This document shows, piece after piece, positions 1 to 30,797 of a stretch of DNA of 64,000 bases (position 1 is the stretch's first letter; each line of letters opens with the position of its first letter). The stretch lies in assembly GCA_027449885.1 (NCBI GenBank), contig DAIDKS010000016.1:1-64000 (forward strand), read 5' to 3'. Source of the DNA: Acidimicrobiaceae bacterium (GTDB lineage Bacteria > Actinomycetota > Acidimicrobiia > Acidimicrobiales > RAAP-2). The translations under genes and the position numbers were made by a program. A model generated the notes under the pieces. That model saw only the letters and a program-made list of their open reading frames with translations, did not search any database and was not told the DNA's origin.

Positions 1-220
1 CCCGGACCACAATCTGAGCTACCTCGGTGCCGCGGCGAAGGCCTTCGCCTCGGACACGGCGATGAGCGTGGCCACCGACGCGGTACAGCTGCTCGGCGGC
101 TACGGGTTCACCAAGGACTTCCCGGTGGAGCGTTTCATGCGCGACGCGAAGATCACCCAGATCTACGAGGGCACCAACCAGATCCAGCGCGTCGTGGTCG
201 CCAAGCACCTGCTGAAGTAG
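1..220 (+). CDS. acyl-CoA dehydrogenase, C-terminal end (partial)
   Basis: Seen: an open frame enters from the left edge (codons start at base 2) and stops at TAG 218-220, giving the last 72 residues. It carries the family's C-terminal signature: LLGGYGF, then [17 protein letters not shown], where the Glu of YEG is the usual catalytic base of short/medium-chain acyl-CoA dehydrogenases. Known: these are FAD flavoproteins that oxidise acyl-CoA to enoyl-CoA. Inferred: this is the integration target of the island that follows. Its last 66 bases recur at 26710-26775, so the present 3' end may be the copy brought in by the element. Confidence 0.93.
155..220 (+). repeat. left attachment site (attL candidate)
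   Basis: The final 66 bases of the acyl-CoA dehydrogenase gene match 26710-26775 at 58 of 66 positions, with unbroken identical blocks of 17, 20 and 11 bases. The differences at alignment positions 18, 21 and 42 are synonymous third-codon changes, so the duplicated end still encodes [17 protein letters not shown]. An integrase and an excisionase-like gene sit beside the other copy. This is the layout of an element that integrates into the 3' end of a protein gene and restores its reading frame. Confidence 0.8.
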
Positions 221-449
221 CCATTTCGTTACCATACATGGGTTCTGTGACCACTGCGGAGTCGGTGGTGCTCGGCTGGTCCCCACGATCCGGGGTCAGG
301 AACCCAGTTTCTGGGGCCGTTTCTGGGGCCAACGCCTGAAGGTTCAAACGGCCCACTCGCAACGCCTGGGTACCGGCGGAACGACGTGTCACGTCATGAG
401 GGACAGTCTCGCGGCACGGTCCACCAGCTCGTAACAGGCCCGCGATACC

Positions 450-476
450 CTGGCACTCTCAGCGTTGGAGTGCCAG
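450..476 (+). promoter_or_regulatory. CIRCE-like operator (HrcA-type)
   Basis: CTGGCACTC (450-458), exactly nine bases, then GAGTGCCAG (468-476): a perfect 9-bp inverted repeat. Known: the HrcA operator CIRCE is TTAGCACTC-N9-GAGTGCTAA, and actinobacterial versions often have CTGGCACTC or TTGGCACTC arms. The arm length, the nine-base spacer and the invariant GCACTC/GAGTGC core all agree. No groES, groEL or hrcA lies nearby; the next gene is the CBASS cyclase. HrcA control of that operon is inference. Confidence 0.6.
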
Positions 477-510
477 GTTGACTGGTAGTTCAGCGTTGAG
501 AGAGAAAGAC

Positions 511-542
511 GGCGAGGGGCCGGCGGTAACCGGCCCCTCGCC
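511..542. other. strong stem-loop, 13-bp stem with 6-base loop
   Basis: GGCGAGGGGCCGG (511-523), loop CGGTAA, CCGGCCCCTCGCC (530-542): a perfect GC-rich hairpin. No U-run follows on the plus strand. On the minus strand it is followed by a pyrimidine run (GTCTTTCTCTCTC). It could therefore stop leftward transcription, or act as a leader hairpin upstream of the CBASS genes. Confidence 0.5.
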
Positions 543-553
543 CAGAAGAGATA

Positions 554-608
554 CCCGTACGTGCGGGCTCTCCACCAGATTGCGGTAGGAGCGTAGCGCA
601 CATACGGG
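554..608. other. second leader inverted repeat
   Basis: CCCGTACGTGCG (554-565) pairs with CGCACATACGGG (597-608) over 12 positions with one G-U pair and a 31-base loop. It lies just before the ribosome binding site of the CBASS cyclase gene. Its function is unknown. Confidence 0.35.
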
Positions 609-630
609 CACAGAGAAAGGAAAGTGCCCC

Positions 631-1650
631 ATGACAGCTATGAATCCACTTAATCCACCGGGGACGCCAACATCACCCGCGGTCCAAGCAGCCTTCGAGG
701 ATTTCGCTCGTGAACTGAACCTGGATGGCGATGAACGGCGCGACGCCAGGGAGCGCCTCACCGAGATCACGCAGCACCTTGTCGATGAAGGCGTCATCGC
801 CGACTTCTTCCTGCAGGGGAGTCTGGCGCGGCGCACGATGATCTCGCCGTTGCGCGACATCGACGCGGTGGTCATCCTGAGCCCCGAGCATGAGCATCTT
901 CGTCATGAGGGTGAAGGCGCACATAGAGCCGCAGGACTGGTCGGCGACGTTCTGCGCCGGCAATACCCCAACGCCGCCCATGATCGATCTCGTCACTCCG
1001 TCAAGCTTGACCTCGGTGAGGACACATTCAGCTTCGACGTCGTCCCCGCTTTCGAGTCGCTCGACGCATCCGATGACGTTGAGATCATGGATCTGGACCG
1101 CGGTGCGTGGTCCTCGTCGAACTCCCGTGAGTTGATTCGCGTGGTCGCCGAGCGAGACACGTGGTGTGACGGCGCCTTCGTCCAGCAGGTGCGATTCGTC
1201 AAGCACTTTGTGCGCCGGGAACTCGGCACCGACTTCCCGGGCCTGCACGTTGAGGCAATTGCCTACGGCAGTGTTACCGAGAGGCTCGGACACGCCGAGG
1301 CGGTGGAGATGATCATCTTGGCGGGCGCACGACTGCTAGGACCTCTCCAGTCCTACTCGGATCCGACGGGACGCGAACGCCTCGACGTGAAGCTTGACAC
1401 CGGTGTCCGCGAGAGAGCTCGCCAGGTCTTCGAGGGGGCGGCTCGACGAGTGGGCGATGCGATGGATCAGGCTCTGGAAGGTCGCGACGAGCAGGCAATC
1501 AGCATTTTTGCCGGACTCTTCGGTGAGCCCTTTCCAAAGCGGACTGCCCCTCGGCCAGTGCGACGGCTTGCACCTGGAGCGGCGACGGCGGCGGCGCTGC
1601 GCGCGGTTGAGCCGCCCACGCCGACAGCTCGGGCCTGGCGGGCAACGTGA
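631..1650 (+). CDS. CD-NTase, CBASS oligonucleotide cyclase
   Basis: Seen: 339 residues with a polymerase-beta-type nucleotidyltransferase core. G63-S64 begins the GS motif, D76-I-D78 is the metal-binding DxD, and D136 in FSFDVVPAF is the third acidic residue; the DVVPA context is typical of CD-NTases. Known: on phage infection these enzymes make cyclic di- or trinucleotides that switch on a killing effector. The next gene encodes an E2-like protein and overlaps by GTGA, which is the type II 'short' CBASS layout. The last ~45 residues are rich in Pro/Arg/Ala, a possible flexible tail for conjugation by the E2 partner (inference). The start is fixed by AGAAAGGAAAG about 7 bases upstream. Confidence 0.85.
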   Translation: MTAMNPLNPPGTPTSPAVQAAFEDFARELNLDGDERRDARERLTEITQHLVDEGVIADFFLQGSLARRTMISPLRDIDAVVILSPEHEHLRHEGEGAHRAAGLVGDVLRRQYPNAAHDRSRHSVKLDLGEDTFSFDVVPAFESLDASDDVEIMDLDRGAWSSSNSRELIRVVAERDTWCDGAFVQQVRFVKHFVRRELGTDFPGLHVEAIAYGSVTERLGHAEAVEMIILAGARLLGPLQSYSDPTGRERLDVKLDTGVRERARQVFEGAARRVGDAMDQALEGRDEQAISIFAGLFGEPFPKRTAPRPVRRLAPGAATAAALRAVEPPTPTARAWRAT

Positions 1651-2201
1651 TCGCCGGCTCACACCAGTACACGCTCCAGCGCGCGTCTGAGTGCGCTGCG
1701 TGGCTCACGGATGGGGGCGTCGTCAATGGCGCCTCCGTCCGTGTTCTGTCGGCTCGGGACAAGGAGGTGGTGTACGACGTGTGGTTCCGGCCCCTGCCCG
1801 CGATAGCTGACTTTGGCTATCCGCTTGAACACGTCCGCCTCCTCGTCCCCGCATTTGGCGACCCTGTGGCGGTGCCGTGTGGGCCAGAGCGGACCTGGAT
1901 GCATCGCTACTCTTCTCCAGTCCTCGGACAACTTGGTCTCGGTGGGAGGATCAACAAGTCAGCCCCCATGGTGGCGCTCGTGGGTGGACTCTGTCTCTGG
2001 TTCCCGGGTGACCGGCCCGACCGTCGGTGGTCGTGGTCGTGGGGCTTTGACGCGTTTGTCCGCCTCGTGCGCGATCATCTTTGGCATGAGGAGGACGCGC
2101 GGCGTTTCGGAGTGTGGCCCGTTGAAGACGCACCGCACGGCTGGCCCGAAGTGCGCAGACTGTCCGAGACGGCGACGGGTGCCCTGCGGCGGACATCATG
2201 A
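1647..2201 (+). CDS. CBASS E2-like conjugation protein
   Basis: Seen: 184 residues. The GTG start overlaps the cyclase stop (GTGA) and the stop overlaps the next start (ATGA). The diagnostic stretch is GGLCLWFPGD (Cys116) followed by a Trp-rich segment, a predicted helix and the dipeptide-rich DAPHG (161-165). Known: the prokaryotic E2 family of short type II CBASS has the LCL(W/Y)xPxD motif with a catalytic Cys and regulates the cyclase by a ubiquitin-like conjugation step, without a separate E1 or JAB protease. Neither an E1 nor a JAB gene is present here, which fits the short type. The family call rests on motif and neighbours. Confidence 0.75.
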   Translation: MIAGSHQYTLQRASECAAWLTDGGVVNGASVRVLSARDKEVVYDVWFRPLPAIADFGYPLEHVRLLVPAFGDPVAVPCGPERTWMHRYSSPVLGQLGLGGRINKSAPMVALVGGLCLWFPGDRPDRRWSWSWGFDAFVRLVRDHLWHEEDARRFGVWPVEDAPHGWPEVRRLSETATGALRRTS

Positions 2202-2725
2202 TCGCGATGACGACGGCGGTGCTGGCGGTGTCCATCTTGGTGCCGGTGGCCATCGCCGGTCTGATCGCCATCATCAATGCTCTGCTGGCGCAGGTCAGTC
2301 AGGCGACAAATCACCGGCGTGAGAGTTACGCGTCGGCGGTCCGCACGCTGGTGGCGTGGATCGAGTTCCCCTATCGCGTACGCCGGCGGGTCGATGACGA
2401 ACCCGGGACTCTGAAGGATCTGGCAGATCAGGGCCACACGCTACAGGAGCAGTTGGAGTACAACCGCGCGTGGATCATCTCAGAGAGCCCACGGGTTGCT
2501 GTCGTTTACAGCGGCGTGCTGGAGCGAATCAACTCTGTAGTCGGGCCGGCGGTGAGTGACGCGTGGAAGAACGTGCCTGTTTCTAGTTCCTCAGGAATGG
2601 TTCTTGGGTCAGTGATGGATCGCAACTCGTGCACCGATGCCCTCGTTGAACTCGAAGCCGCCATCGCGCATCGATTTGGTTGGCGTCGGTTTCGCCTTCG
2701 GCGCCGTGACCGTCCTAGTGGCTGA
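2198..2725 (+). CDS. one-TM protein, candidate CBASS effector
   Basis: Seen: 175 residues. One strong hydrophobic segment (about 5-31) is followed by a mostly helical cytosolic part (about 35-150) and a short Arg-rich tail (RRFRLRRRDR). The start overlaps the E2 stop by ATGA, so the three genes are translationally coupled. Known: many CBASS effectors are membrane proteins that disrupt the inner membrane when they bind the cyclic nucleotide. Inferred: as the only other operon member it is the best effector candidate. I do not recognise a named effector family; it could instead be a membrane-anchored accessory protein. Confidence 0.6.
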   Translation: MIAMTTAVLAVSILVPVAIAGLIAIINALLAQVSQATNHRRESYASAVRTLVAWIEFPYRVRRRVDDEPGTLKDLADQGHTLQEQLEYNRAWIISESPRVAVVYSGVLERINSVVGPAVSDAWKNVPVSSSSGMVLGSVMDRNSCTDALVELEAAIAHRFGWRRFRLRRRDRPSG

Positions 2726-2807
2726 GTACATGCGAGTTCAGAAGTCCTGGCGGCCAGCAATGAAGTGCTGCGAGCGCGTCACGAGGTTCCTCGCCGCCTA
2801 GCTCATC

Positions 2808-3419
2808 TCAGTGAGTGAGGGCACTTGACTGTCGCGGCGCTGTTGATACGAGAGGGAGGGCTGACGGCCGTTGAGCGCAGCGCCTTTCGTTCGCCTGGAG
2901 GTCGAGGCCGAGCAACGCGCTCGTCGTCTTGCGCTGCTCCTCAACCACGCAGCCCTTGACGATCTGGAGACACTGGTGGCGGGTCACCTTGGCAATGTCG
3001 GGGATGTCCGCCTTGCTCTGTGCGACCTGGGTGGCGATGCCGCGCTCACCGGAATGTGAGGAGAACGCCGCGATGCGAACCGACTCCATTTCGGCCCCGA
3101 TGAGACACTCGCGCAACATGCCCGTCACCGCCGGACCAGCGGCCGCCGGGACTGGTCGCAGAGACCCGCCAGGCGTCTCTTCGAACAGGCAAAGGTTCTG
3201 GTGGCACTCGATCCGAGAGACGAGGGCGCTGTCGCCAAAGGGCCCGGCGGCCCATAGGGCCGCTACCCAACGCTCTACAGCGCTCGCCTCGTTCGTCTCG
3301 AAGTGCTCGCCCCAGGGCAGGAAGGCAGTCAGCCCCTGGCCGACTTGATCGGTCGTGGGGCATCGGTTGTCAGGTCTGGGCGGATCGCACCCGCTACGGG
3401 CATGTCGAGGCCATGTCAT
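2808..3419 (-). pseudogene. decayed tyrosine recombinase (C-terminal fragment)
   Basis: Seen: a minus-strand frame of about 203 codons whose second half reads like an integrase catalytic domain: SHSGERGIATQ, then DIPDIAKVTRH, then KGCVVEEQRKTTSALLGLDL. In active enzymes the first block is H-x-x-R and the last carries the nucleophilic Tyr (GYV). Here the Arg position is Glu and the Tyr position is Cys. No N-terminal core-binding domain or first catalytic Arg is seen. Inferred: the remnant of an older integrase near the left end of the island. The region upstream on this strand (3420-3540) has similar-looking but frame-broken sequence. Confidence 0.6.
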
Positions 3420-3994
3420 TCACCAGCTCGATCACTCTCACGGGTCGACCGGGGATCTCGTCGCGGCACACGGACGTCCCATCGGGGCCGGGCAACCACG
3501 GCCCTAGCGGTCGGAGTTGCTAGCGGGGGCTGAACCCGACGGTTGGTCAGGATGGCTCGGGCGCCCGCGGTGGTGTTGCGAGCTATCGCGGCAAGGTGTC
3601 GGCAGCTCAAGTTCCCAGTAATCGGGATACTTCAATTGCGTCTCGGCGATTGCGTGTTCGCGGCAAGGGCGGACGGTGATCAGCATGAAGAGAACCACGC
3701 CTCAAGCCAACTCGTCGAAGCACCAGGACATCGACAACTTCGCCGTGCTCATCGCGCTGCCTCAGGTGGAGCGCCTCCGTCTACTGCGAGAGCTACGAGG
3801 AGGCGCAGGAAGATCGGCGGTGATGATCCGGGCGCGAGTGCTCGTGAAGTCGATCGAGGTAACTGGTCCTGATCAGGACTGAGGATACCTGTGCACATCC
3901 ACGGTGACCCTGTCTCTACTCTTCCCTCAGCCAGCTGAGAAGAACGTAATCGCCGGTGTGTGCGTGTGCAGCGCCTCTGAGCACCGTCCATGCC
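3420..3994. other. intergenic region with no well-supported gene
   Basis: Only short open frames with no recognisable motif or good ribosome binding site are present. The best is 3685-3882 on the plus strand (65 codons from ATG 3685), which contains an amphipathic stretch IALPQVERLRLLREL; I would not call it a gene without homologues. The region probably holds the promoter of the recombinase-like gene that follows. Confidence 0.4.
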
Positions 3995-6900
3995 ATGAGC
4001 ACCAAGAACTCGTCCGTAGCGAAGCGCAGCGTTAGGGAACACGACTCCGGGCAGCGGTCCTCGCGGTCGGCGACCGACGCAGTGACGCACCCTCTCATCG
4101 CGCGGCTTCGTAGCGAACTAGGCCTCGACCCTCATCAGCGCTATCAGGTCGGTCTCATTCGCGTCTCTCAGAAGGGCAACCTGGACAAGCTGGATGACCA
4201 ACGTGGCACCGGCGTCGCCGTGTACGAGGGAATGCCAGACTTTGCAGCCCTCAAGAACCTTCCAATGGACGTGGCGGCGCGCGAATGGATCGTAGTGCGC
4301 TACCGAGATCTCAACCCCGCAGGTGGCACAGGGACCTTCGGATGGGTGGGCCTCATTGGCGAGACGGTATTCGTTGCCGTGGCCGACTCGGCGGTCAAGG
4401 CCAATTTGCCGCCCGATCCGAACGACCCGGCCCAGATCGGGCGCAATGCCTACGTTGACTTGCTCACCGCGGCCGCTCTGGCCGCAAACGCCAGGTGCAT
4501 CTACGTGCCCTTCCGTAATCGGTGGTGGCGCAATGATCTCTACGCCAACCAACTGATGACCGCCATCAATCGTCGATTGCCCTCTTGCCAGCTCATGGAG
4601 GGCGATCGCCTGGTGGCTACCAGCGGCGTCGAGAAGCTGGTCACCGACGTCATCGGACACGCCGAGGGCTCCGGCAACGCTGAGATCCTTGCTGAGCAGA
4701 CCTTCACCAAGAGCATCGAGCACCTTGAGGCGGGCGGTCAGTGGGACCGCCGCGAGAGCGAGTTGCCTCTCGGTCTCGGGCGCGAACGATTGCCTGTCGC
4801 AGGGGGCACAACCCGCAAGGGCCTCAAGGTCGTCGAGAACGAGTTCTGGGAGGTCGCCGCGAGGGCCCTGGAATTGCGAGCAGAAGGTGAGAGCTGGCAG
4901 GCCGTCGGTGACTACCTCGCTGAGAAGCGCGTCCCCATGACTGGCACGAAGGCTCGCGGACGCACCTTCGCGGCCTACACCAAGGCGCATGAGCGCACGA
5001 GCGCCGCGCGATCTCTCCTCCTGCGCTACGTCGACTGGTACCGCACTGGAGATCTGGTTGTTCGCCGCTACACCAAGCTCCAGCGTGACCAAGTCCGTGG
5101 CCACGCCCTGAACTTCGATGCCGCAACGGGTCAGCGCTACTGCGACGTGACTGTGAGGCTTCCGTGGCGACCCTTGCTGTCCGAGAGTCAGTGGGCCTCC
5201 TTCGACCGTCACGAAGCTGAAGACGTGGCCTGCCGAGCGGCGAGTCGCCAGACGGGGGGTGCTACCCACAAACACTCTCGAGGTGGAGCAGCCTTTCAGG
5301 GCGTCCCTCGGTGGGGAGAGGACCAGACTCTGGCTCCCGAGACGCCCACGGCCTACCGCTGGCGGCGCAATGGGCGTATCGAGGCCACTCTCCGAAGAAC
5401 CCTCGTGCACCGTGGTGCCGGGATTGCGCTTCTCGAGGCCCTTCGCCATCTGGATCAACCCATGGGAGCCGCCACATTGCGCCGGGGCGACAACGATCCA
5501 TTCAGCGAGAGAGAATCTCGCATCGCCGCGATGGAACAGGAGATCATCGATCTACGGTCGAGTTCGGAGGCCGCCGACGCAGAGTTGCTGCGATCGCGTA
5601 CCCTCGGAAAGCCAGAACGTGAAATCGAGCACTGGAGATCACAGGGCACGGCGATTCGAGAAAGGCTCTGGCGCGTGGAAGAAGCACGCGACAGCGCTCT
5701 AGAGGAACTTGCGCGTGCGCGCGAGCGGGTCGTTGACCTCATCGATGAGCGCGACGCGGACATCACTGAACCATTGCTCCTGGCGTCGCTGCTCGCTGAT
5801 GGGGACCAGCGAGTCGACCCCAGCGTGACGGAGCTCTGCGAACGCTGCGGAATCACCACAACGCTCCGCGCCACCTGGGACGACGGCGGCGATGAACGAC
5901 GTGTGGACCAGGAGCCCGGTCGATTCGTGCGCCTCAACGCCGTGGCGAGAGTTGCCCTACTCGACGGAGAGACGGTTGAGTTGGACCTTGCCTGGAACGT
6001 CGGTGACAGCTTCGAGGCCCCCGGCGATGTCGCTCTTACGCCGGTCATGCTTCGCCAATGGGCGGGCGGGGCCGGTTACGAAGAGATCGCCAATGCGCTG
6101 CCCGACTACGACGCGACCCGCGTCCGACGTTGCATCGGCCGGACTCTTCTCAAGGCGGGTGTGGTGGATCGCTCACTGCGTCGCTCACTTCTTGAGGCGC
6201 CCGTTGCGACTCCACGTGCGATCGTGGCCGCCGTTGCACTCAACGATCATGATCTTGCGCGGCCTTTCGCTCGAGTCCTGCGCGACGAGATCGCGGCCAC
6301 CTACTTCGGCAAGACCGCCTCCTTCAAGGGGCTCTGGTGTGACAGTGCCAACCTCGCAGAGTATCGACGAGTACTCGAAGTTCTGGCGGATGTCAACATC
6401 GGGGAGGACGGCATCGATCACACGGCACTCGTTCGTGGCGCTGGTGTTTCACACGATGTGCTTCGGCTGATGGCTCGAGGGCGCCTCTTTGACAAAGTGT
6501 CGGCCTACGCCGCGCGCGCACGTCGCTGCACCTTTCAAGACCCGACGCTGAGCGCGGTGTGCGGAGGGCGAATGACCATCTACACACCGGCTCCCGAGGC
6601 TGGTCTGATCTGCTCCAAGTGCTGGCGCCCAGATGGGCGTCATGGCCAACTGGGAGAGGAGTACACCCGACACTGGATTCGTGATGGCGAAGGACGGCTC
6701 GTCGCCGCGTCCTCGCCATCGGTGGCGCCCGTGTCTCGTCAGCGAGATCGCATGCTCACAGTCTCCGAGGTCGCCGAGCGACTGAGGATTTCGTCGAGCG
6801 CTGTGCGCCGACTCGATCTCGAAGGACAACTCGTTCCGGAGAGTCGTGACGGCATCAACCGTGGCCGCCTCTATTCGAACCGCCAGGTCGACGAACTGAC

Positions 6901-7375
6901 CCCTAGGACGATTGAAGGCTGGCAGTCGCGCTTTGGTACTGATACCGAGGTCGAGCTCTTGAGCACTGGCGATGTAGTCACGCTTCTGGGCGTGACCACG
7001 TCGCATGTGCGTGACTTCGTCGATTCGGGGCAACTGAAAGTGGCTCGCGTATCGGCTGGCGGGCGTCTCCACTTTCGCAGGGAGGACGTGGACCAGCTCA
7101 ATCCGAACTTGCTCGATGCTTACTCGCACGTGGCGATCAGCGATGCCGCGACAGCCGTAGGACTTTCGCCGGACATGCTCCGTAGGCTCTCAGATGACGG
7201 GAGAATCCACTCGTTTCGCACCGCGGGGCGGCGTCGCCACTTCGACCTCGCTGTCCTACGTGAGGAACTTGATGCTCTCGGCATCTACGTCGATGCCGAC
7301 GGGAGGCCCTCCTCGAACGGAGGGATTGAGACCGCCGGTGCACCTCGCACGGAGCCTGAGGCGCCGGAGGTCTAG
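3995..7375 (+). CDS. very long serine-recombinase-like protein with three C-terminal HTH domains
   Basis: Seen: 1,126 residues from ATG 3995; an upstream in-frame GTG at 3956 is possible. The N-terminal region has YQVGLIRVSQKG (Ser58 in the place of the catalytic Ser of YxRVS). At about 280-325 is a recombinase-type segment (NEFWEVAARALELRAEGESW, then YLAEKRVPMTG), like large serine recombinases. A coiled coil spans about 500-600. Cys pairs (ELCERCG; VCGG with CSKCW) suggest zinc binding. Three MerR/excisionase-type winged helices follow near 920-965, 987-1030 and 1047-1095. Known: large serine recombinases are usually 450-700 residues. Inferred: a DNA-binding recombinase relative, perhaps for transposition or excision. 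The catalytic domain is diverged, so activity is uncertain. Confidence 0.55.
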   Translation: MSTKNSSVAKRSVREHDSGQRSSRSATDAVTHPLIARLRSELGLDPHQRYQVGLIRVSQKGNLDKLDDQRGTGVAVYEGMPDFAALKNLPMDVAAREWIVVRYRDLNPAGGTGTFGWVGLIGETVFVAVADSAVKANLPPDPNDPAQIGRNAYVDLLTAAALAANARCIYVPFRNRWWRNDLYANQLMTAINRRLPSCQLMEGDRLVATSGVEKLVTDVIGHAEGSGNAEILAEQTFTKSIEHLEAGGQWDRRESELPLGLGRERLPVAGGTTRKGLKVVENEFWEVAARALELRAEGESWQAVGDYLAEKRVPMTGTKARGRTFAAYTKAHERTSAARSLLLRYVDWYRTGDLVVRRYTKLQRDQVRGHALNFDAATGQRYCDVTVRLPWRPLLSESQWASFDRHEAEDVACRAASRQTGGATHKHSRGGAAFQGVPRWGEDQTLAPETPTAYRWRRNGRIEATLRRTLVHRGAGIALLEALRHLDQPMGAATLRRGDNDPFSERESRIAAMEQEIIDLRSSSEAADAELLRSRTLGKPEREIEHWRSQGTAIRERLWRVEEARDSALEELARARERVVDLIDERDADITEPLLLASLLADGDQRVDPSVTELCERCGITTTLRATWDDGGDERRVDQEPGRFVRLNAVARVALLDGETVELDLAWNVGDSFEAPGDVALTPVMLRQWAGGAGYEEIANALPDYDATRVRRCIGRTLLKAGVVDRSLRRSLLEAPVATPRAIVAAVALNDHDLARPFARVLRDEIAATYFGKTASFKGLWCDSANLAEYRRVLEVLADVNIGEDGIDHTALVRGAGVSHDVLRLMARGRLFDKVSAYAARARRCTFQDPTLSAVCGGRMTIYTPAPEAGLICSKCWRPDGRHGQLGEEYTRHWIRDGEGRLVAASSPSVAPVSRQRDRMLTVSEVAERLRISSSAVRRLDLEGQLVPESRDGINRGRLYSNRQVDELTPRTIEGWQSRFGTDTEVELLSTGDVVTLLGVTTSHVRDFVDSGQLKVARVSAGGRLHFRREDVDQLNPNLLDAYSHVAISDAATAVGLSPDMLRRLSDDGRIHSFRTAGRRRHFDLAVLREELDALGIYVDADGRPSSNGGIETAGAPRTEPEAPEV

Positions 7376-7898
7376 TCGTACGTCACTCTCAAGGGCGGCG
7401 TGTGAGTTGAAAGGTCGCCCTGGGCGCGCCACCATCGTGCCTGAATGGCCCAGGCGCGATGAGGGCAGGAACGGCATGTAGGAGTTCGGCCTCAATGTGA
7501 GCCGGGGCCCAATTACTGAGGTAGCAGGTTCCTGCGTCGCGGCAAGCGGCCAGAGAGTCCGACAGCGTGGCGAAGGTGGGCACGTCGTGTGGCAGCGTTT
7601 GGGCTGTCTTCGGGGCATTCCAGGAATCCTTGTCGGGGCGGAGAATCCATGTGCACGGCGTCGCGTCGGCGGCACGGTGGTGTTCGATGAGGAACCCAGA
7701 CAGACCGGTCGGAGTCCTACGAGGCGTAGATTCCTCGCAGTCCTCAGACGCCTCTGTCGCCGCGGCGGCCCTGCATCGTCCGAGTGGACCTCTCGTCATT
7801 GTGAGTGCCGCCGTTGGCCCGCGCTCTGGATCCTGTCGGGCTTCCCGCCGCTACGCCACGGACAACGCCCCTTCACCCAGCACCAACCAAGGAGGAAC
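7376..7898. other. intergenic region, no supported gene
   Basis: Several open frames overlap each other on both strands (for example a minus-strand frame 7389-7799), and none has a recognisable domain or clear ribosome binding site. The region ends in a consensus AAGGAGG (7889-7895) serving the gene at 7899. Confidence 0.4.
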
Positions 7899-8225
7899 AT
7901 GACCATTCAGCACCCGAGCCTCGAGGAGAGCCTGCGCACCGAGCTGCACAGCTGGCTCTGCTGTGCGCTGGCCGACGTGATCGCCCTGCCCACGGAGACC
8001 TCGCTCGTCACCAAGGACCGAGAGGGCCTCCTGCTCGTCGTGGCTCGGACGTGTCGCAGCATCGACGCAGTCCAGCTCTACGCCTCGGAGTGCCGAGAGG
8101 TGGCCCAGTCCCAGGCGATCTCGTCCCTCACACTCGCCTTCGCAGAACTCGCGGTGGCGATGTGCCGACTGCTGGAAGAGGAGGTGCAGATCGTTCAAGA
8201 CCACGTTCTGACAATCGCCTGCTGA
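7899..8225 (+). CDS. small helical protein of unknown function
   Basis: Seen: 108 residues, predicted almost all helical, acidic and with several Cys (LCC, RTCR, MCR, IAC at the end). The start is decided by a textbook AAGGAGG (7889-7895) three bases before ATG 7899; the frame is open much further upstream, but that part is Arg-rich and low in plausibility. It has no recognised domain. The next gene encodes a similar-sized helical protein with its own start 93 bases on, and the two share a loose E-x-S-A-x-x-L-x-E-E pattern near the C-terminus. They may be a functional pair. Confidence 0.6.
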   Translation: MTIQHPSLEESLRTELHSWLCCALADVIALPTETSLVTKDREGLLLVVARTCRSIDAVQLYASECREVAQSQAISSLTLAFAELAVAMCRLLEEEVQIVQDHVLTIAC

Positions 8226-8318
8226 CACGAACGCCAGCAGGCTCTCAACTCGCCGGCGTCACACTTTGCGATGGCCGGTATGTCTGATTCCCATCTAGAC
8301 CCGAAAGTAGGACTACTC

Positions 8319-8651
8319 ATGCATGTCATACCCGTATCCGAGGTGGAGCTCAATCGCTCGGCTCAGCTCTACCGACGGCTGGGCGAGCTCAGCGCTGAGA
8401 TGTCGCAATTACCCACGGAGCGATCCGTCAAGTTGTGCACGCAGAGCGAGGCGCGCGACGCAGTGAGCCGCTGCAAGGATGCTCTCATCGACGCCCTCTA
8501 CAGTGCCATTCGGCTCGCCCAGTTGAACGATATCGACGAGACGTCGCGCGGGTGGGTCGAGGAGGCCCTTCGTTTTGCCGAAGAAGATCGGGCGATTCTT
8601 GAGCACGTGGAAGGAAGCCTCGTGGGGAAGTGCCTTGTGAATCTGACGTAG
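8319..8651 (+). CDS. small helical protein of unknown function
   Basis: Seen: 110 residues from ATG 8319 (an upstream in-frame ATG at 8271 is less likely), preceded by GTAGGA about 10 bases before. It is predicted to be nearly all helical (about 8-30, 45-70, 80-100), with no membrane segment or known motif. It follows the other small helical gene and precedes the DISARM-like operon by about 230 bases. Its function is unknown; it could be an accessory or regulator of that operon. Confidence 0.55.
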   Translation: MHVIPVSEVELNRSAQLYRRLGELSAEMSQLPTERSVKLCTQSEARDAVSRCKDALIDALYSAIRLAQLNDIDETSRGWVEEALRFAEEDRAILEHVEGSLVGKCLVNLT

Positions 8652-8878
8652 AAGAGCCCCTGCGGCGGTGCGCGGACTGACGAGTCGATGGTTGAGCCCC
8701 GCTCAGCCGCTTCCTAACAGCGTCTCGTGCGCCAGTGCCAGTCTTCATAAATTCGAATGAATTCTCCGAAGGTGGAGGTGTGGCTCCAATGTACTAAGCA
8801 CGTAGTGTCGCAATGCCGAAGTACGTTCTTTAGGTTGTCGGTTTGCCGCACCAACGCGAAGAGAGGGCAAGCAAGGGG

Positions 8879-11800
8879 ATGAACGTCTTTGAGTTGCGGC
8901 GTCACCAGGTAAGCGACTACGAGCACTACGTGCGCAGCTTCATGTCCATGCGCGACGACCGGCTGCGAGACGAAGTGGAGACCCAGCTGTCGGGGGGCCT
9001 GCTGTGGCCGCATCCGCGCATGGGACTGAACCCGTCCTTCGCTCCTGGCGGGTGGATCGATCAGCTCGTCTCCGACGGCACTTTGCATCCCGAATGTGGG
9101 CGGATCTTCCGGATCAAGCCTGATGGAACTACAGAGCGCGGGCTCCACCTTCACCGCCATCAGGTCGAAGCGATCGAAGCCGCCCAGCGCGGCGGCAGCT
9201 ACGTGCTCACGACAGGCACTGGATCGGGCAAGAGCCTCGCCTATCTCATCCCCATTGTGGACGCCATCCTGCGCGAGGGTCCGGGGAAGGGCATCAAGGC
9301 GATCGTCGTCTACCCGATGAACGCCCTCGCCAACTCACAGGCGGGAGAGCTGGAGAAGTTCCTCTATCGGGGCTATCCCGACTTTCGAGGACCCGTGAGC
9401 TTTCGTCGCTACACCGGTCAGGAGAGCGACGAGGAGCGCCGACAGATCTGGGCCGATCCCCCGGACATCATCCTCACGAACTACGTCATGCTCGAACTCG
9501 TCCTGTCTCGGGTCGACGAACAGGCACTGGTTAAGGGGGCGCAGGGCCTGCGGTTCCTCGTCCTCGACGAGTTGCACACTTACCGGGGACGCCAGGGGGC
9601 GGACGTGGCCCTGCTCTGTCGGCGCGTGCGCGACGCCTGTCGAGCCGAGCGACTACAGATCGTGGGGACGTCCGCGACGCTCGCGAGTGGTGGATCCTGG
9701 GGGGAGCAGCGAGTCGAGATCGCTCGCGTGGCGACGCGCCTGTTCGGCCTACCCGTCGCCGCTGGTGACGTGATCGGAGAGACCCTGACGCGGGCGACCG
9801 CTGGCTTTGAGGATGATGACCCGAGTGCCGTCGCCCAGCTGCGCGAGCGAGTGGTGTCAGGTATTCCCGTCCCTTACGACTACAAGGCCTTCGTGGCCGA
9901 CCCCCTCTCTGCGTGGATCGAGTCACGCCTGGGCATCGCGACAGAGGAGGGCTCGGCGCGTCTGGTGCGCGTGCGACCTCGGACCATCGGACTACCTGAC
10001 GGTGTCGCCACTGAGCTCGCGGCGCTGATCGGCGCCGATCTTGCTCTCTGCGAGCAGCTCATCGAGGATCAGCTGCTCGCGGGGGGCAATGTGTATCACC
10101 CGGACACGGGCGTTCCGGTCTTCGCCTTCCGACTCCACCAGTTCTTCTCTCGAGGTGACACGGTGTACGCCTCCCTCGAGGACCCAGCCACCCGTTACAT
10201 CACGACGAGTCCGCAGGAGTACGTGCCCGGCGACCGCTCGCGCGTGCTGCGACCGCTCGCTTTTTGTCGCGAATGCGGCCAGGAGTACTACCCGGGGTCG
10301 GTAGCGGATCGGCGAGGCAAGGAGTTCGATCCTCGTCCCCTGAACGAGCGTCTGGCCGACGCCCCGCCGTCCTACCTCGTGATCGGCACCGACTGGCCGG
10401 AGTCGACGGATCCAACGCTCTTCGATCGCCTGCCGGAGGACTGGGTGGAGGAGACGGCGAACGGGCCCCGGGTGAAGTCCGATCACCGGCGGCACCTGCC
10501 TGAGGCTGTGACGGTCGCGCCTGACGGACGTCTCTTCGAGGGTGGCGTACGGGCCTGGCTGATCAGCGCCCCGTTGCGCTTCTGCCTGAACTGCGGGGTG
10601 ACCTACGGCTCTCGTCAGAACTCCGACGCCACCAAGCTCGCGACCCTGGGATCTGGCGGACGTAGCTCAGCCACGACGATCCTCTCGCTGGCGGCGGTGC
10701 GGTACATGCGCGAGGACTCGTCACTCCCCGAGGAAGCCCGCAAGCTACTCGCCTTCACGGACAATCGCCAGGACGCCTCCCTGCAGGCGGGACACTTCAA
10801 CGACTTCGTCGAGGTCGGCCTCATTCGCTCGGCCCTGTGGCGCGCCGTTGACGCGGCGGGCGAGGCGGGCCTCTCGCACGACGAGTTGACAACCAGGGTC
10901 TTCGAGGCACTCGCCCTGCCCAAGCACGACTACGCGCTCAATCCTGACCTGCGGGGCGTCGCCGCCATCGAGACAGACCGGGCCCTGCGCGACGTCCTGG
11001 GCTATCGGCTGTATCTCGACCTACGGCGGGGCTGGCGCATCACCTCACCCAACCTCGAGCAGGTCGGACTGCTGAAGGTCGACTATCTGGCCCTCGAGGA
11101 TGCCGCGGCGGATGGGGAGATGTGGGCGACCTTCGGGGCGGTGGTGGCTGGCTCGCCGGTCCAACTCCGTCTCGAGCTGCTGCACACGTTGCTCGATTTC
11201 CTGCGTCGCGGTCTCGCCATTCGAGTCGACTACTTGGACAAGGAGCGCCTCGAACAGATCGGACAGAACTCGCGACAGCGCCTCGTGACACCGTGGGTGC
11301 TGGAGGAGGACGAACAGGAGTTCGCGGCGATCGCCTTCGCCCGCCCGCGACGTCCCGGGGACTTCCGTGGTGCCGTCTACGTCTCGGCGCGAGGAGGCTT
11401 CGGTCAGCACCTGCGCCGTCGCCTGCGCGCGACGACCGGTCACGATCTCACGCTCAGGGATACGGACGACGTCATCATCGATCTCTTCCGGGGCCTCGAG
11501 CAGTATGGGCTCGTGACGACGGTGAGGGAGGGCACCGACGGGGCTGAGGCGGGCTTTCAGATCCCGGCGGCCGCCCTGCGCTGGCGCGCAGGAGACGGTG
11601 AGCCCGCCGTCGACCCGATCCGCATTCCGCGCCCGCCTGAGACGGGTCGACGGGCCAACGAGTTCTTCACCGACTTCTACCGCACCGTGGCAGCAACGGG
11701 AGCTGGTCTCGAGGCACGAGAGCACACGGCTCAGGTACCCGCGCAGATCCGCGAGGAGCGCGAGGAGGAGTTCCGGAGCGCTCGACTCCCGGTGCTCTTC

Positions 11801-14038
11801 TGCAGCCCGACCATGGAGCTCGGCGTGGACATCGCCTCGCTAAACGCCGTCGGGATGCGCAACGTGCCACCGACGCCCGCGAACTACGCCCAGCGTTCTG
11901 GCCGCGCGGGCCGGTCAGGCCAGGCGGCCCTCGTCTTCACGTACTGCTCTACCGGCTCACCGCACGATCGTTACTTCTTCCGCCACCAGGAGCAGATGAT
12001 TGCTGGCCAGGTGACCCCACCGCGTCTGGACGTGGCCAACGAGGACCTGGTGCGCGCCCACGTGCACGCAATCTGGCTCGCCGAGGCGGGCCTGAGCCTG
12101 GGGGCCTCGCTGACGGACGTGCTCGACGTGGCCGGAGACGAGCCGTCACTCGCGCTCCTCGCGCACGTCGCTGACGCGCTCGAGGCACGAGAGCCCCGAC
12201 GCCGGGCGGCCGTTCGCGCGAGGGAGGTCCTGGCCGATCTCGAGGCAGACCTCGCTGCCTCGGGATGGTGGCACGACGGGTGGGTCGACGCCACGCTGGC
12301 CGAGGTGCGCCTGCGCTTCGAAACGGCGGCCGAGCGCTGGCGCGACCTCTACCGCGGCGCCCTCGCCCAGGCGCGTGCTCAGACGCGCATCATCAACGAC
12401 GCGAGGCGCTCGACGCAAGAGCGCAAGCGGGCCCAGCAGCTACGACGCGAGGCCGACGCCCAGGCCGAGCTCTTGCGAAGCGAGGGGACCCGCCAGTTCC
12501 AGAGCGACTTCTACTCGTACCGCTACTTCGCCTCGGAAGGCTTCCTGCCCGGCTACTCCTTCCCGCGTCTACCCCTCTCCGCATTCATACCCGGGCGTCG
12601 AGGGGTGAAGGGTGACGACGAGTACGTCTCGCGCCCGCGCTTTCTCGCGATCTCGGAGTTCGGTCCGGGCAACTTCATCTACCACGAAGGGGCGCGCTAC
12701 CAGATCACGCGCGTGATCTTGCCCGTGGCGGATGCCGTGGGCGATGAAGCCTCGCCACTGACCATCTCGGCCAAGATCTGCAGCTCGTGCGGTTACCTGC
12801 ACCTGGGCGTCGAACAGGACGTCTGCGAGGCGTGCGGCGCGGCGCTACCCGTTGCGCGCACGAATCTGCTGCGTCTGCAGAACGTGGTGACCCGGCGTCG
12901 CCAGCGCATCAACTCTGACGAAGAGGAGCGCCAGCGACAGGGCTACCAGATCCTGACCACCATGCGCTTCGGGCCTGAGGGTCCACGGCGGGCTCGGGTG
13001 GTCGCCGTGGGCGAGGAGCTCGTCCGCTTGGCCTACGGACAGGCGGCCAGCATCTGGCGCTTCAACGTGGGCTGGCGTCGCCGCCGACCCGAGGATCCAG
13101 AGGGTTTCGTGCTTGACACCGAGCGTGGCACGTGGGAGAAGAACCCCGCCGACGCCGACGAGGTGACGGACGACGCGGACAGTGTCGGGCGACGCCACCA
13201 GCGGGTCATCCCCTTCGTCGACGACACGCGCAACTGCCTCGTTGTCGAGGTGGCGGGTCTGCCCTCGGACGGCGATGAAGCGACGAATCTTCTTGCGTCA
13301 TTGCAGTCGGCCCTCAAGACCGCCATCCAAGTCCAGTACCAGTTAGAGGACAGCGAGCTCGCCGCCGAACCACTCCCGAGCGCCGACGAGCGCCGCCAGC
13401 TCCTGTTCTACGAGGCGGCCGAAGGCGGGGCGGGCGTGCTGCGTCGCCTCGTGGAAGACGCGGGCGCCTGGAGCGCGGTGACGCGCCGGGCTCTCGAGCT
13501 TTGTCACTTCGACCCCGAGAACGGAGATGACCTGCGGCACGCGTCGGGGGCGAGCGAGGACTGCGAGGCGGCGTGCTACGACTGCCTGATGTCCTACACC
13601 AACCAGCTCGATCATCGCCGCCTGGACCGAATGGCGGTGCGCGAGACGCTGATCACTTGGTCGCAGGCGGAGCTCGAGGTGGGAGCACTCGGGGAGAATC
13701 GTGCCGACCACCTCGAGCGACTCCTGCGCCTGTGCGGGAGTGATCTCGAGCGTCGGTGGCTCCATTGGGTCGATGAGCAGGGCCTGCATCTGCCGAGCGA
13801 CGCCCAACGACTCTTCCCCGATGAGGGCACGCGCCCGGACTTCACCTACGACGACGCCTACGTCGCCGTCTATATCGACGGACCGCCCCACGACTACCCC
13901 GAGCGCCAGTCGCGTGACGGGGCCCAGGAGAGCGCGCTGCGCCAGGCGGGTTGGTCGGTGCTGCGCTTTCGCTACGACGAGGAGTGGACGCCCATGGTTG
14001 CCTCGCGACCCGACGCCTTCGGTGAGGTTCGTCGATGA
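8879..14038 (+). CDS. DISARM-like helicase with DUF1998 region and C-terminal nuclease-like domain
   Basis: Seen: 1,719 residues from ATG 8879 ([11 protein letters not shown] is a natural family start; an in-frame TTG lies at 8843). Walker A TGTGSGKS is near 112, the DEAD-box variant DELH near 229, and helicase motif [13 protein letters not shown] near 1005. Cys pairs at CRECG, CLNCG and CSSCG...CEACG suggest zinc ribbons. A DUF1998-type tail has [12 protein letters not shown] near 1561. The last ~75 residues ([17 protein letters not shown], then a segment ending [10 protein letters not shown]) resemble a Vsr/DUF559-type PD-(D/E)XK fold. Known: DISARM splits helicase and DUF1998 between DrmA and DrmB. 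Inferred: this protein combines both, plus a nuclease-like end. The stop overlaps the next start (ATGA). Confidence 0.75.
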
Positions 14039-16827
14039 GCTTCAGCGTCGGCAGCCTGGTGCGCGCCCGCGGGCGCGACTGGGTGGTATTGCCCGACTCG
14101 AGTGATGAGCTCCTCCTCCTTCGACCCCTGGGTGGCGCCGAGAGTGAGGTGGCGGGAGTCCTCACGTCCCTAGAGACGGTCGAGGAGGCCACGTTCGCTC
14201 TCCCTGGCCCTGAGGATCTGGGCGACGACCGCTCCGCGAGACTGCTGCGGGATGCGCTGCGCCTCGGCTTCCGTTCGAGCGCCGGTCCTTTCCGGTGCTT
14301 CGGTGGTCTCAATTTCGAGCCTCGGCCCTACCAGATCGTGCCCCTTCTGATGGCGTTGCGTCAAGAGACGACGCGGCTGCTAGTCGCTGACGACGTGGGC
14401 ACCGGCAAGACGGCGTCGGCACTCCTGGTCGCGGCGGAGCTTCTCGCTCAGGGTGACGTCAGTGGTCTCGCAGTGCTCTGCCCGCCGCATCTGGCGACGC
14501 AGTGGCGCGAGGAGATGGTGGAGAAGTTCCACCTCGATCCGGTGATCATCCTCTCGTCGACTGCGCCTCGACTCGAACGCGAGTGCCGCCTCGGTGAGTC
14601 CATCTTCGATCGCTACCCGATGACGATCGTCTCCACTGACTTCATCAAGGCCGACCGTCGCCGTGACGAGTTCTTGCGCGCCGCACCCTCTCTCGTCATC
14701 GTGGACGAGGCGCACACCTGCACCCCTGACGGGGGTGTTCACGGCGGGCGCCACCAGCGCTATGAGCTCCTGCGGGGTCTGGCAGCCGACGCCAATCGTC
14801 ACCTGATCCTCGTGACGGCGACGCCCCACGCGGGTAAGGGGGAGCCCTGGCGCGCCCTGCTTGCCATGCTGTCACCGACTCTCGAGCAGTTGCCCGAGGA
14901 CCTCTCGGGCGAGTCCAACCGGCGCAGCCGCGAGGCTATCGCTCGTCACGTCGTCCAACGCACCCGCGGTGACCTACGTCGCTACCTCGAGGCGACGCAG
15001 TTCCCGGACGTGCAGTACGCCGCGCCGGAGCCGACCTATCAGCTCTCGGCGGAGTATCGGGCGCTGTTTGACGCGGCGTTCGCCTATGCCACCGAGACGG
15101 TGCGTGGCGGCCCCGAGGCTCACCGACTGCGCTGGTGGTCGGCGCTGGCCCTGCTGCGCTCGATCGGTTCGAGTCCGGCGGCCGCCGTCGCGACGCTGGA
15201 GAACCGCGCCGAGTCGCCAGTTCTCAGTGAGGAGATGGCTGATCACCCCGACCTCTTCGACTACTCGATCGACGACGACGAGGAGGGGACCGGCGACGCG
15301 GTGCCCGTCGGGAACCTCGGTGAGTCACACGGGGAACGCGCGCGTCGCCAGCTGAAGGAACTTCGCGAACTTGCCCAGGTCTGCTTCGGCGCAGCGGACA
15401 CCAAGTTGGCGGGCGCCGTGAAGATCTGCACGGAACTCGTCGAGGCGGGCTATCGGCCGATCGTCTTCTGTCGCTACATCCCCACTGCCAACTACCTCGC
15501 TCGCGAGCTCGCCAGCCGACTGCCGGACGTTGAGGTGCGAGCGGTCACCGGGGAGATCCCGGGACCGAAGCGGCCCGAGCAGGTGGCGGCGCTCGGAGCG
15601 TACGAGCGTCGCATCTTGGTGGCGACGGACTGCTTGGCCGAGGGGATCAACCTTCAGTCCCTCTTCGATGCGGTGGTCCACTACGACCTGCTCTGGAATC
15701 CTTCGAAGATGGCCCAGCGCGAGGGCCGCGTCAGCCGGCTCAATCAGCCGAGCCCGACGGTACGCGTCGTCACGTACTACGGCGCGGACAACTTCATCGA
15801 TCAGCTCGTGCTCGAGGTCCTCCAGCGCCGCCACGTCACGATCCGCACCGACACCGGCGTGGCCGTCCCGGTGCCGGGGGACCCTAACGCCCTCATCGAA
15901 GCCTTCGCTCGCCGTCTGCTGAGTGGCAGCGGCACGCTCTCACACACGCAGCTCTCGTTCACGGGCATGGACGAGGAGGCCGAGCAGATCGCCCAGTGGG
16001 AACAGGCGGCCGAGAAGGAGAAGCGCAGCCGCACGCTCTTCGCTCAAGAGGGCATCAAGGTCGACGAGGTCGCCGCTGAGCTCGACCGCGTTCGCGAGGC
16101 CATCGGAGCGGGCGCCGACGTGCAGCGCTTCCTCATAGACGCCGCCACGTCGCTCGGCGGAGCGGTGCACGAGCGACGGGGCGCGATCCGTGTGGACCTG
16201 ACTGAGGCCCCGGTCGCCGTGCGCGAGCTCGTCCCCGATGGAGAGGTGACGGCGCGCTTTGAGCCTCCGGCGGGTGAGGGCGAGACGCTGCTTACGCGTA
16301 CCCACCCGGTGATCGCGGGACTCGCCAAGTACACGCTCGACAGCGCGCTCGACATGCGCGAGGCGGGCGTCGCCCGACGAGCGGGCGTGATGCGCACGGA
16401 TGCCGTCACCACTCGAACTGTGCTCATCCTGGCTCGCTACCGCCTGCACATCCTCGAGGGGGAGGCGGCGAGCCGTCGTCAACTCCTGGCCGAGGAATGC
16501 GCCGTGCTCGCCTTCTCGGGAGACCCGAAGAGTCCCCAGTGGCTCTCCTCTGGCGAGGCGGAGGAGCTCCTTCGAGCTCGACCGTCGGGCAACGTCGCCG
16601 GCGAACAGGCGCGCGAGGTCCTCTCCGAGATCGTGGCGGCGGAAGGTGGCTGGCGAGGGGGCGTGGAGGACGACGCCAGGACGCGCGCAAACGAGCTCCT
16701 CGCTGATCATCGTCGGGTGCGCCAGAGCTCACAGCGTCGAGTGCGGGGTCTCTTCGTGGAGGCTCAGCTGCCCGTCGACGTGATCGGCTGCTACGTTCTC
16801 CTGCCGGGGTCAAGGGGGGCGTCGTGA
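14035..16827 (+). CDS. SNF2-family helicase, DrmD-like
   Basis: Seen: 930 residues. Walker [11 protein letters not shown] is near 119, Walker B VDEAHTC near 223, SAT-like TATPHAGKG near 262, and the C-terminal helicase lobe [14 protein letters not shown] with [11 protein letters not shown] near 528-570. This is the Swi2/Snf2 pattern of DNA translocases. Known: class 1 DISARM carries an SNF2 protein (DrmD) beside a DrmMI methyltransferase and the DrmA/DrmB pair. The gene overlaps both neighbours by four bases (ATGA upstream, GTGA downstream), so it is made with them. The acidic region after 730 has no recognised domain. Confidence 0.75.
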
Positions 16828-24831: not shown

Positions 24832-26241
24832 TCAAAGGCCGGGCCATTGGATGGTTGCCGTACGAACATGTCGGAACTCTTCGTTGGTGACGTGGCGGTA
24901 GATGGCGAGCGTCGTGCGCTCGTCGGCGTGACCCATCGACATCTGGACCGCCTTGGTACTCCATCCAAGGCCACCACTCTGCACGGGAGCCAAGCTGTAG
25001 GAGCCGTAGGTGTGGCGTGTGTAGTGGGGGCGCCATATCCAGACTGCGGGGGCGTCGTCCGGCGCGACGCCACTGTCGAGTGCACGTTGGCGGAGTGTGC
25101 CCATGTAGTGAATTGCCCGCTTCCACTCGGACTCCCGGGCCTTCGTCCGCCAGAGTTGGCGTGACGGGGCGGGAAAGAGCCAGCCACCGGAGTGCTCGTC
25201 GGCGTACTCCACGAGCTGGCGCAGCACTGGTTCGAAGAAGGGCCACACATTGACCCTGCGGGGCCGGTCGTTCTTCGGCGGGACCATCGGTGGGGCGTCG
25301 CCCGGGTACCAAGGCCGGTAGACGTCGATTTGGCGGTCGACGCCGATGGTCATGTCGTCGAGGTCGATGCGGCTCGTGTGGACGACTAGCGTTTCACCGA
25401 GACGCATGCCCGTGGCCACTTGGAACATCGGCTGCTGGGACGTCTGCGAGGCCGCTTCGGGGCTTAGTAGGCGATGATGCGCGCGGAGTCCTTCGATCCC
25501 CAGCGTCTCTACGGCGTAGATCGCGTCGCGCAGCTGGCTCACCACGCTGAGACTCGGAACGTCCTTGAGGCCAATGCCGCGCTCGTCATCGCCATCTCCC
25601 GAGTAAGTCTCACTCGCGAGTTTTTCGTAGGCGCGAACCCGAATGCGCGCGCGCCGCGCGGCCGCTTTCGTGGCGATGTCTTCGTCCATGAAGCCGAAGG
25701 GGTCCTCTATGGCGTAGCCCTGGTCGATGAGCCAGCGTCCAAAGGTGCGCAGCGAGCTCTCGGCGCGGCTCTGGGTGTTGAGGGCCTTGGGTCTCCCATC
25801 GCGGGTAAGCGCAGTGGAGATGGAGGCGACGACGTCTTTCGCCATCGGGCCCACCAGGTCTCTTACGCGCGGGGCGCTGCGCTGCGTCAGTGGCCCGAGG
25901 TGAAGTCTCACGTCACTGAAGCGGCAGTCAGCCGTGCCCTGGGGCATCGTGTGGGCCGCGACGGCCTCGTCGAGGAACCGCTGGTACACGTTGATGGCGT
26001 CGGCGAGGAGGATCCGAGTGTGGTCGCCGCGGGTGCCGTGGACGTCGCGATGTTCGAGAAGTCTCTGACGCAAGAGGGCGGCCGCCTCGAGGGCGGTATC
26101 TCTCGAGGAGTACGTCGAGGGGAGCTCCTTGCGGTCCTTCGGGTCGGTGATCTCGCCGGTGGGGTAGTAGCGCACGCGGAAGCGCTCGCCCTTGCGGCAC
26201 ACGCTGACCGGGTCTCCGTAGGGGTTCTTGGGCCTAGCCAC
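24832..26241 (-). CDS. tyrosine recombinase (integrase) of the island
   Basis: Seen: 469 residues from GTG 26241, chosen for GAGAGGA about 6 bases upstream and the overlap with the excisionase-like gene. An N-terminal SAM-like arm region (about 1-200) is followed by the catalytic domain: first Arg in TGMRLGET, HxxR in PHYTRHTYG, and the His plus nucleophile Tyr in MGHADERTTLAIYRHV. All catalytic residues are present, so it looks active. Known: tyrosine integrases insert elements at short sites, often in gene 3' ends. The 66-base duplication of the acyl-CoA dehydrogenase end lies about 470 bases beyond its start. Inferred to be the enzyme that moved this island. Confidence 0.9.
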   Translation of the reverse strand: MARPKNPYGDPVSVCRKGERFRVRYYPTGEITDPKDRKELPSTYSSRDTALEAAALLRQRLLEHRDVHGTRGDHTRILLADAINVYQRFLDEAVAAHTMPQGTADCRFSDVRLHLGPLTQRSAPRVRDLVGPMAKDVVASISTALTRDGRPKALNTQSRAESSLRTFGRWLIDQGYAIEDPFGFMDEDIATKAAARRARIRVRAYEKLASETYSGDGDDERGIGLKDVPSLSVVSQLRDAIYAVETLGIEGLRAHHRLLSPEAASQTSQQPMFQVATGMRLGETLVVHTSRIDLDDMTIGVDRQIDVYRPWYPGDAPPMVPPKNDRPRRVNVWPFFEPVLRQLVEYADEHSGGWLFPAPSRQLWRTKARESEWKRAIHYMGTLRQRALDSGVAPDDAPAVWIWRPHYTRHTYGSYSLAPVQSGGLGWSTKAVQMSMGHADERTTLAIYRHVTNEEFRHVRTATIQWPGL

Positions 26242-26545: not shown

Positions 26546-26709
26546 GACGGCAGACGGTCGGGCCCGACCTGGGGCATGCACTCGGCACTTTTTTCGTGGG
26601 GCCTCAGCGCCGCCTCGTCCTACACTGGCGGGCTGTGACCGAGATTCTGTGGGAACCGACATCGCGAAAGACCAGTCGTCCCTTGGCCTTTCGAGGTCTA
26701 CGGCCTGCC

Positions 26710-26775
26710 ACCCAGATCTACGAGGGAACGAACCAGATCCAGCGCGTCGTCGTCGCCAAGCAGCTGCTCGGATAG
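26710..26775 (+). repeat. right attachment site (attR candidate)
   Basis: A second copy of the acyl-CoA dehydrogenase 3' end ([17 protein letters not shown], then QLLG and TAG 26773-26775), with no gene body upstream: the preceding DNA is the promoter side of the excisionase-like gene. A 7-bp hairpin follows the stop at once (26783-26799), as expected for the gene's original end. This suggests that this copy is the host's old 3' end and that 155-220 came with the element. Confidence 0.8.
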
Positions 26776-26782
26776 CGCGCTC

Positions 26783-30791: not shown

Positions 30792-30797
30792 CGGGTC

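Follow-up and report, generated by a model that had tools for sequence, protein, structure and literature searches.

A putative HrcA operator and a conserved RNA leader precede a mobile CBASS operon in an Acidimicrobiaceae bacterium

Introduction

Regulators of CBASS operons have been described in several forms. The genes for CapW/BrxR, for CapH with CapP, and for CapK with CapS lie next to the operons they control, and DNA damage is the signal in each case (PMC13373217, 2026). RNA can also act on the system, as cabRNA, a structured phage RNA derived from terminase genes, activates the CdnE03 cyclase of CBASS (PMC10686824). The HrcA/CIRCE regulon, in turn, comprises class I heat-shock genes. 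In C. jejuni, GroE enhances the binding of HrcA, and the model for relief of repression invokes titration of GroE by misfolded protein (PMC8533110).

Here we describe a CBASS operon which appears to be controlled by the HrcA repressor of its host. The locus resembles the HrcA/CIRCE regulon in operator sequence, in the 9-nt spacing and in the presence of hrcA in the host; a position near the transcription start is inferred from promoter-like sequence (starts are unmapped). In contrast to that regulon, the operator precedes a mobile anti-phage operon and not chaperones or proteases, and it is followed by a long structured RNA leader. As with CapH and CapP, CapW/BrxR or CapK and CapS, a repressor would keep a toxic immune operon low until stress, which we propose for HrcA. 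However, no HTH or peptidase gene was recognised in the stretches scanned before the operon; the host HrcA would serve instead, and the signal would be protein-folding stress. The leader shares with cabRNA a folded structure and a link to a CBASS cyclase, but it belongs to the operon itself, whereas cabRNA stems from phage terminase genes, and no binding has been shown for the leader. With a cyclase, an E2-like protein and a transmembrane effector in one operon, the system matches Type II CBASS with E2 only, which we take to be the variant labelled 'short'.

Should the proposed control be confirmed, HrcA would tie abortive infection to proteostasis rather than to DNA damage, and the operon would borrow a housekeeping repressor of the host instead of carrying its own. 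Furthermore, a conserved RNA structure that matches no Rfam family here stands before a CD-NTase, an enzyme class with at least one member that RNA activates (PMC10686824). We found no literature joining HrcA and CBASS, nor, among the matches listed and judging by titles and listings, any linking CIRCE/HrcA to phage defence or CBASS to the heat-shock repressor HrcA; most subscription-journal papers and all bioRxiv preprints lay outside the search.

The CBASS operon and its relatives

The window is the whole stretch of 64,000 nucleotides analysed here. It forms the beginning of a contig in a host assembly of 1.98 Mb which is 84%-complete, and 448 bp are available upstream of the operator. The earlier note had named the CBASS cyclase as the only gene downstream of the operator. 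The cyclase is indeed there (631-1650, plus strand; SMODS, PF18144, E=3.9e-16; PADLOC Cyclase, E=2.3e-34), but it opens an operon of three genes. An E2-like protein (1647-2201, plus strand; PADLOC E2, E=1.5e-11) and a 1TM effector (2198-2725, plus strand; PADLOC effector 1TM, E=5.1e-19) follow, neither of which has a Pfam match. The elements that define CBASS are thus present: a CD-NTase-type cyclase, an effector in the operon and an E2-like ancillary protein. Nothing unusual was seen in the proteins of the operon; its novelty is the control region.

The leader of the window (415-640) is 81% identical in a second species, G030, where it stands before the same CBASS operon (70% identity over the whole of 415-2691). 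A leader model, R1, was built from these two leaders without protein information and run on 297 related genomes. Besides its two parents, it found two full-length matches, in G054 and G057, at E about 1e-12. This leader is only 56% identical to that of the window (92/163 aligned bases). Both copies precede a homologous cyclase-E2-1TM effector operon whose cyclase is 48% identical to the window cyclase; the PADLOC calls of the E2-like protein and the 1TM effector were made on the G057 copy. Since the copies of G054 and G057 do not differ anywhere in the 2 kb compared, they count as one, which leaves only three distinct leader sequences. Weaker R1 matches in nine further genomes (E 2e-4 to 0.07, with stricter filters which lose weak matches) mostly corresponded, in the alignments read, to one GC-rich hairpin or to coding-like sequence and are treated as chance.

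The operator and the putative promoter

Directly upstream, positions 449-477 harbor the inverted repeat CCTGGCACTC-TCAGCGTTG-GAGTGCCAGG, to which no strand is assigned. Its arms (449-458 and 468-477) are 10 bp each, 100% complementary and 9 nt apart. The repeat had been reported as a perfect 9-bp repeat with nine spacer bases at 450-476, a description which is right in place, perfection and spacing and one which gives the arms too short. The core GCACTC-N9-GAGTGC is exact. In the host assembly, this core occurs at two places only, the CBASS operator and a site just upstream of hrcA, and the reversed pattern does not occur at all. The operator is of the TGGCACTC form and not of the Bacillus form, since TTAGCACTC-N9-GAGTGCTAA has no match in the window with up to three mismatches. 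The layout of an HrcA operator, which had been proposed from the GCACTC/GAGTGC core, is borne out by the exact core, the 9-nt spacing and an hrcA gene in the host. Together with cross-genome pattern counts and locus reading, the repeat geometry makes the identity as a CIRCE/HrcA operator close to settled, as far as sequence can settle it.

The promoter is less clear. A -10-like TACCCT (446-451, plus strand; TACCGT in G030) overlaps the left operator arm, and a conserved block, GGTCCACCAGCTC (418-430, plus strand), which is identical in G030 at 13/13 positions, occupies the corresponding -35 position. No TTGACA-like -35 hexamer is recognisable in the promoter region of the window, and the promoter assignment is therefore an inference only. 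Both the window and G030 have a -10-like TANNNT that touches or overlaps the operator. Among the other HrcA-type sites presented below, TANNNT lies just before the operator at five of six zinc-ribbon sites (further upstream at the sixth), at 2/4 groESL sites and at the single hsp20 site, and it is absent there at all 13 hrcA, four groEL-only and three lon sites. A putative TTGACG-N17-TGTAAT promoter is present at G054/G057, with its end 17 nt upstream of TTAGCAGCC, the left arm of the operator (transcription starts unmapped).

HrcA and HrcA-type sites in the host and its relatives

The host encodes hrcA (PF01628, E=1.1e-40; the Pfam match starts at C40:1167), as does G030. The presence of the gene was established for these two hosts only and not for G054/G057. 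The second exact core of the host, at C40:790-810, is followed after a few bases by the ribosome site and an ATG of the hrcA frame. A search of the host for hrcA and for other CIRCE sites, which had been suggested as a check, thus returned both. The operator also stands up to comparison with the operators of its hosts: its left arm, CCTGGCACTC, is letter-identical to the left arm of the host hrcA site, and the version in G054/G057 is the groESL operator of the genus. Two groEL loci were found in the host, with degenerate operators that carry one or two core mismatches.

In a set of 148 related genomes, the 16-base form TGGCACTC-N9-GAGTGCCA has 55 sites in 49 genomes and its reversed control none, so that chance is very unlikely; a chance palindrome is rejected on these counts. 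Apart from the CBASS sites of the window and G030 and the host hrcA site, 52 sites remain, of which 30 were read and 22 were not. Twelve of those read lie beside hrcA, four at groESL, four at groEL alone, six at a zinc-ribbon gene, three at lon (the assignment at L096 rests on a match below its Pfam cut-off) and one at hsp20. No recognised defence gene was found beside any of these 30 sites; the CBASS sites of the window and G030 are the exceptions.

The operator in G054/G057 has the form TTAGCAGCC-N9-GAGTGCCAA, which occurs 39 times in 38 of the 148 genomes and is restricted to this genus (reversed control, 0). Two of these asymmetric sites belong to CBASS operons and 37 are others. All 25 non-CBASS sites that were read lie directly upstream of groES; the 12 unread ones include the second G057 site and that of the host, the latter placed at groES by a separate locus reading. 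G054/G057 match the genus groESL operator at 18/18 specified bases. Its orientation at CBASS is opposite to that at groES in the 25 sites read, which should not matter to a dimer that binds a palindrome.

One target of the HrcA type in this order was unexpected. At six of the 30 loci read (L079, L081, L082, L086, L088 and L090), a zinc-ribbon gene (Zn_ribbon_8) stands behind the CIRCE element. We presume this gene to be FmdB-type.

Structure and conservation of the leader RNA

Between operator and cyclase lies a structured RNA leader which the earlier note overlooked. Compared with shuffled sequences, the leader of the window folds at z=-9.0 and that of G030 at z=-5.0. The consensus structure contains three elements, all on the plus strand. 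H1 (459-499, 16 pairs) overlaps the operator spacer and the right arm. H2 (511-542) has 12 consensus pairs and forms a perfect 13-bp stem in the window. H3 (554-608) has 19 pairs in two helices, and its segment 578-601 is identical in G030. Standard pairing is seen in 98.6% of the 141 cells of the three distinct sequences, and sliding the partner lowers pairing to 37-42%. Double-sided changes are present in 15/47 pairs, where shuffles would give 5.4. Among the five measures, one does not exceed its shuffles, namely the count of further pair types (26 against 24.0; 73/500 reach 26). Because two of the three aligned sequences went into the model to which the alignment was fitted, the result is biased towards that structure; the third row, from G054/G057, was found by R1 without protein information.

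The nature of the RNA is not given by known families. Rfam 15 yields no match above the gathering score in window positions 1-10000, and up to E=5 only one match appears there, to a miRNA family and far below its gathering score. Neither a tRNA nor a known Rfam RNA was found as the identity of the leader. An RNA thermometer, with the ribosome site in a small hairpin (607-630), was set aside, as its stem sequences differ between the window and G030. Possible roles of the leader are those of stabiliser, attenuator or ligand, each of them inferred.

The overlap with H1 raises the question whether the repeat is merely a part of the structured leader RNA and its likeness to CIRCE a by-product of folding. 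The right arm does lie inside a covarying hairpin, the leader folds far better than shuffles in both species, and the left arm keeps only six of its ten bases between the window and G054/G057, whose left arm has two mismatches to the operator pattern. However, the left arm (449-458) belongs to no consensus helix and is still conserved at 9/10 positions in G030, where the same exact core is found, and none of the three distinct sequences departs from the 9-nt spacing. In addition, no constraint on RNA predicts the complete match of G054/G057 to a genus-specific groESL operator. We therefore consider a folding by-product quite improbable. Part of the conservation of the right arm may nevertheless come from the RNA, because this arm also belongs to H1. 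Since the left arm is outside the helices and the right arm inside H1, a DNA operator and an RNA overlap here and yet are separable by mutation.

Relatives without the leader

A cyclase search in 172 genomes of the family gave six holders at E <= 1e-15: the window host, G030, G054, G057, G034 and the distant G222. The absence of the repeat from homologous CBASS islands would have spoken against the operator. This is not what is seen, as three of the four other operons of the clade in the genus keep the operator at the same position of the leader. In the fourth, G034, operator and leader are absent together. Its cyclase shares 68% identity with the G057 cyclase, and a fused HTH-M78 peptidase gene (L154, 311-1366, minus strand), which matches the PADLOC models RmrA, capP and capH, is divergent from it. 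HrcA control is thus not universal in the clade.

The operator is also absent upstream of the G222 cyclase, of seven further cyclases (E <= 1e-20) from 395 sampled genomes of the class, and in two Rhodococcus plasmid copies. An M78 peptidase gene is present upstream of four of the seven class cyclases and was not found at the other three, with one upstream frame scanned each. Of the leaderless cyclase loci from the genome searches that were read, 5/9 have an upstream M78-peptidase (CapP-like) gene (L071, L072, L073, L076 and L154), and none was found at L070, L074, L075 and L155 in the one upstream frame scanned per locus.

In the frames scanned, the operons of the window, G030 and G054, which have the leader, gave no such neighbor. 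At the window operon no adjacent HTH and M78 genes were found, and the frames scanned in the 630 bp upstream give only the end of a dehydrogenase gene. The nearest upstream frames at G030 are a recombinase and one without a match, and the upstream frame scanned at G054 is DUF4232. It looks as if HrcA control had taken the place of the adjacent regulator, as an exchanged regulatory module. As a single genus holds the operator with the leader in four genomes and an adjacent HTH-peptidase regulator in a fifth, such a module swap is testable.

The island

The operon lies near one end of a 26.5-kb defence island bounded by 60-bp direct repeats which are 93% identical. The left repeat (154-213, plus strand) falls within the 3′ end of a gene for an acyl-CoA dehydrogenase (2-220), and the right repeat (26709-26768, plus strand) matches that gene end. 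In G066 the site is empty: the flanks are contiguous (1-213 at 97.7% and 26709-36214 at 91.4%) and overlap by the repeat. A tyrosine recombinase gene (24832-26280, minus strand; Phage_integrase PF00589, E=1.8e-8) adjoins the right end; its role as the island integrase is inferred. G030 has the same leader and operon in other surroundings, between two tyrosine recombinase genes.

This setting bears on a second reading, raised as an alternative in the earlier note, in which the operon was recently inserted behind the promoter of groESL, hrcA or another heat-shock gene and is read by accident. The letter identity of the left arm with the host hrcA site would fit such a captured promoter. However, leader and operon stay together in different surroundings, no other copy of the leader exists in the host assembly, and a sequence search of the 297 genomes gives nothing longer than about 40 bases outside G030. 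The operon belongs to the cargo of the island, and in the relative with the empty site the dehydrogenase gene leads directly into the right flank; the operator is therefore no stranded chromosomal heat-shock promoter. The groE-type variant of G054/G057 is, in addition, inverted relative to its orientation at groES. Capture of a promoter thus appears very unlikely and is not supported as an account of the locus. A remnant of a displaced groE locus is rejected, as both groEL genes were found on other contigs and the operator is inside the island.

Several other features of the island were noted. A DruE-like helicase (8843-14038) is followed by a DEAD/SNF2 helicase (14035-16827), and G030 likewise has the stretch 8879-14810 behind its CBASS operon (77% nucleotide identity). 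A protein of 1139 amino acids (3956-7375) shows HTH_17 in three stretches and MerR in two, and each of its Pfam matches is best beyond residue 900; it has no nucleotide match in the G030 stretch read. An apparent remnant of a tyrosine recombinase (2808-3419, minus strand) has no Pfam match and is 68% identical in nucleotides to a part of a Phage_integrase gene (L033, 4048-5556). Several relatives carry extra copies, 60-70 bp long, of the dehydrogenase gene end, which suggests an insertion site that is used repeatedly.

A model for HrcA control

The operator matches HrcA sites of the same organism and is conserved before three divergent copies of the operon. Given this, we consider it probable that HrcA represses the CBASS operon and releases it when GroEL is titrated; both the binding of HrcA and the induction are inferred from the sequence of draft assemblies, without expression or binding data. 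In the proposed sequence of events, the operator would lie across the start of a promoter which transcribes the cyclase, E2-like and 1TM effector genes through the three-hairpin leader RNA. At rest, GroEL would keep the host HrcA active, and HrcA on the operator would hold the operon low. Misfolded proteins, such as those produced by heat, or newly made viral ones would then occupy GroEL, and HrcA would let go. Upon its release the promoter would fire and leave the cell armed for abortive infection. Phage assembly leans on GroEL in well-studied cases, and GroEL occupancy could for this reason serve as a signal of infection. The phage as natural trigger remains an inference.

The operator may also be functional without any link to infection, and serve general-stress expression or a heat-linked upkeep of the island. 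This reading draws on the other HrcA-type sites read in the order, which precede general proteostasis and zinc-ribbon genes, and on the lack of phage data. Against it, each of the three distinct copies has the operator directly before the cyclase-E2-effector operon, with different genes around them, and phage infection can raise heat-shock chaperones, as phiX174 does in E. coli, via sigma-32 and not HrcA (PMC8125068). We regard general stress as the sole purpose of the operator as doubtful, without dismissing it. A more elaborate form of HrcA control has two layers: chaperonin occupancy as an infection alarm through release of HrcA, and the leader RNA as a checkpoint, either as a translation or termination switch or as a ligand of the cyclase. 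This extension is tentative, a possibility that we favour less than HrcA control by itself.

HrcA-type sites in viral contigs

Mobile and viral sequences were also searched. The stretch 415-1000 (leader and start of the cyclase) has no blastn match in plasmid and phage records, and no relatives of the cyclase were found in viral contigs by a scan that reaches close relatives only. The 16-base leader core occurs at six loci in viral contigs, where the leader models give nothing better than E=4 (R1) and nothing up to E=2 (R2).

Furthermore, 104 stretches of viral contigs (IMG/VR) contain an exact TTAGCACTC-N9-GAGTGCTAA, and a recurrent group of these sites lies directly before an Hsp20-like gene. 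The gene was recognised by eye and confirmed with Pfam for L252 only (site at L252 243-269). Phages may place a chaperone of their own under the HrcA of the host.
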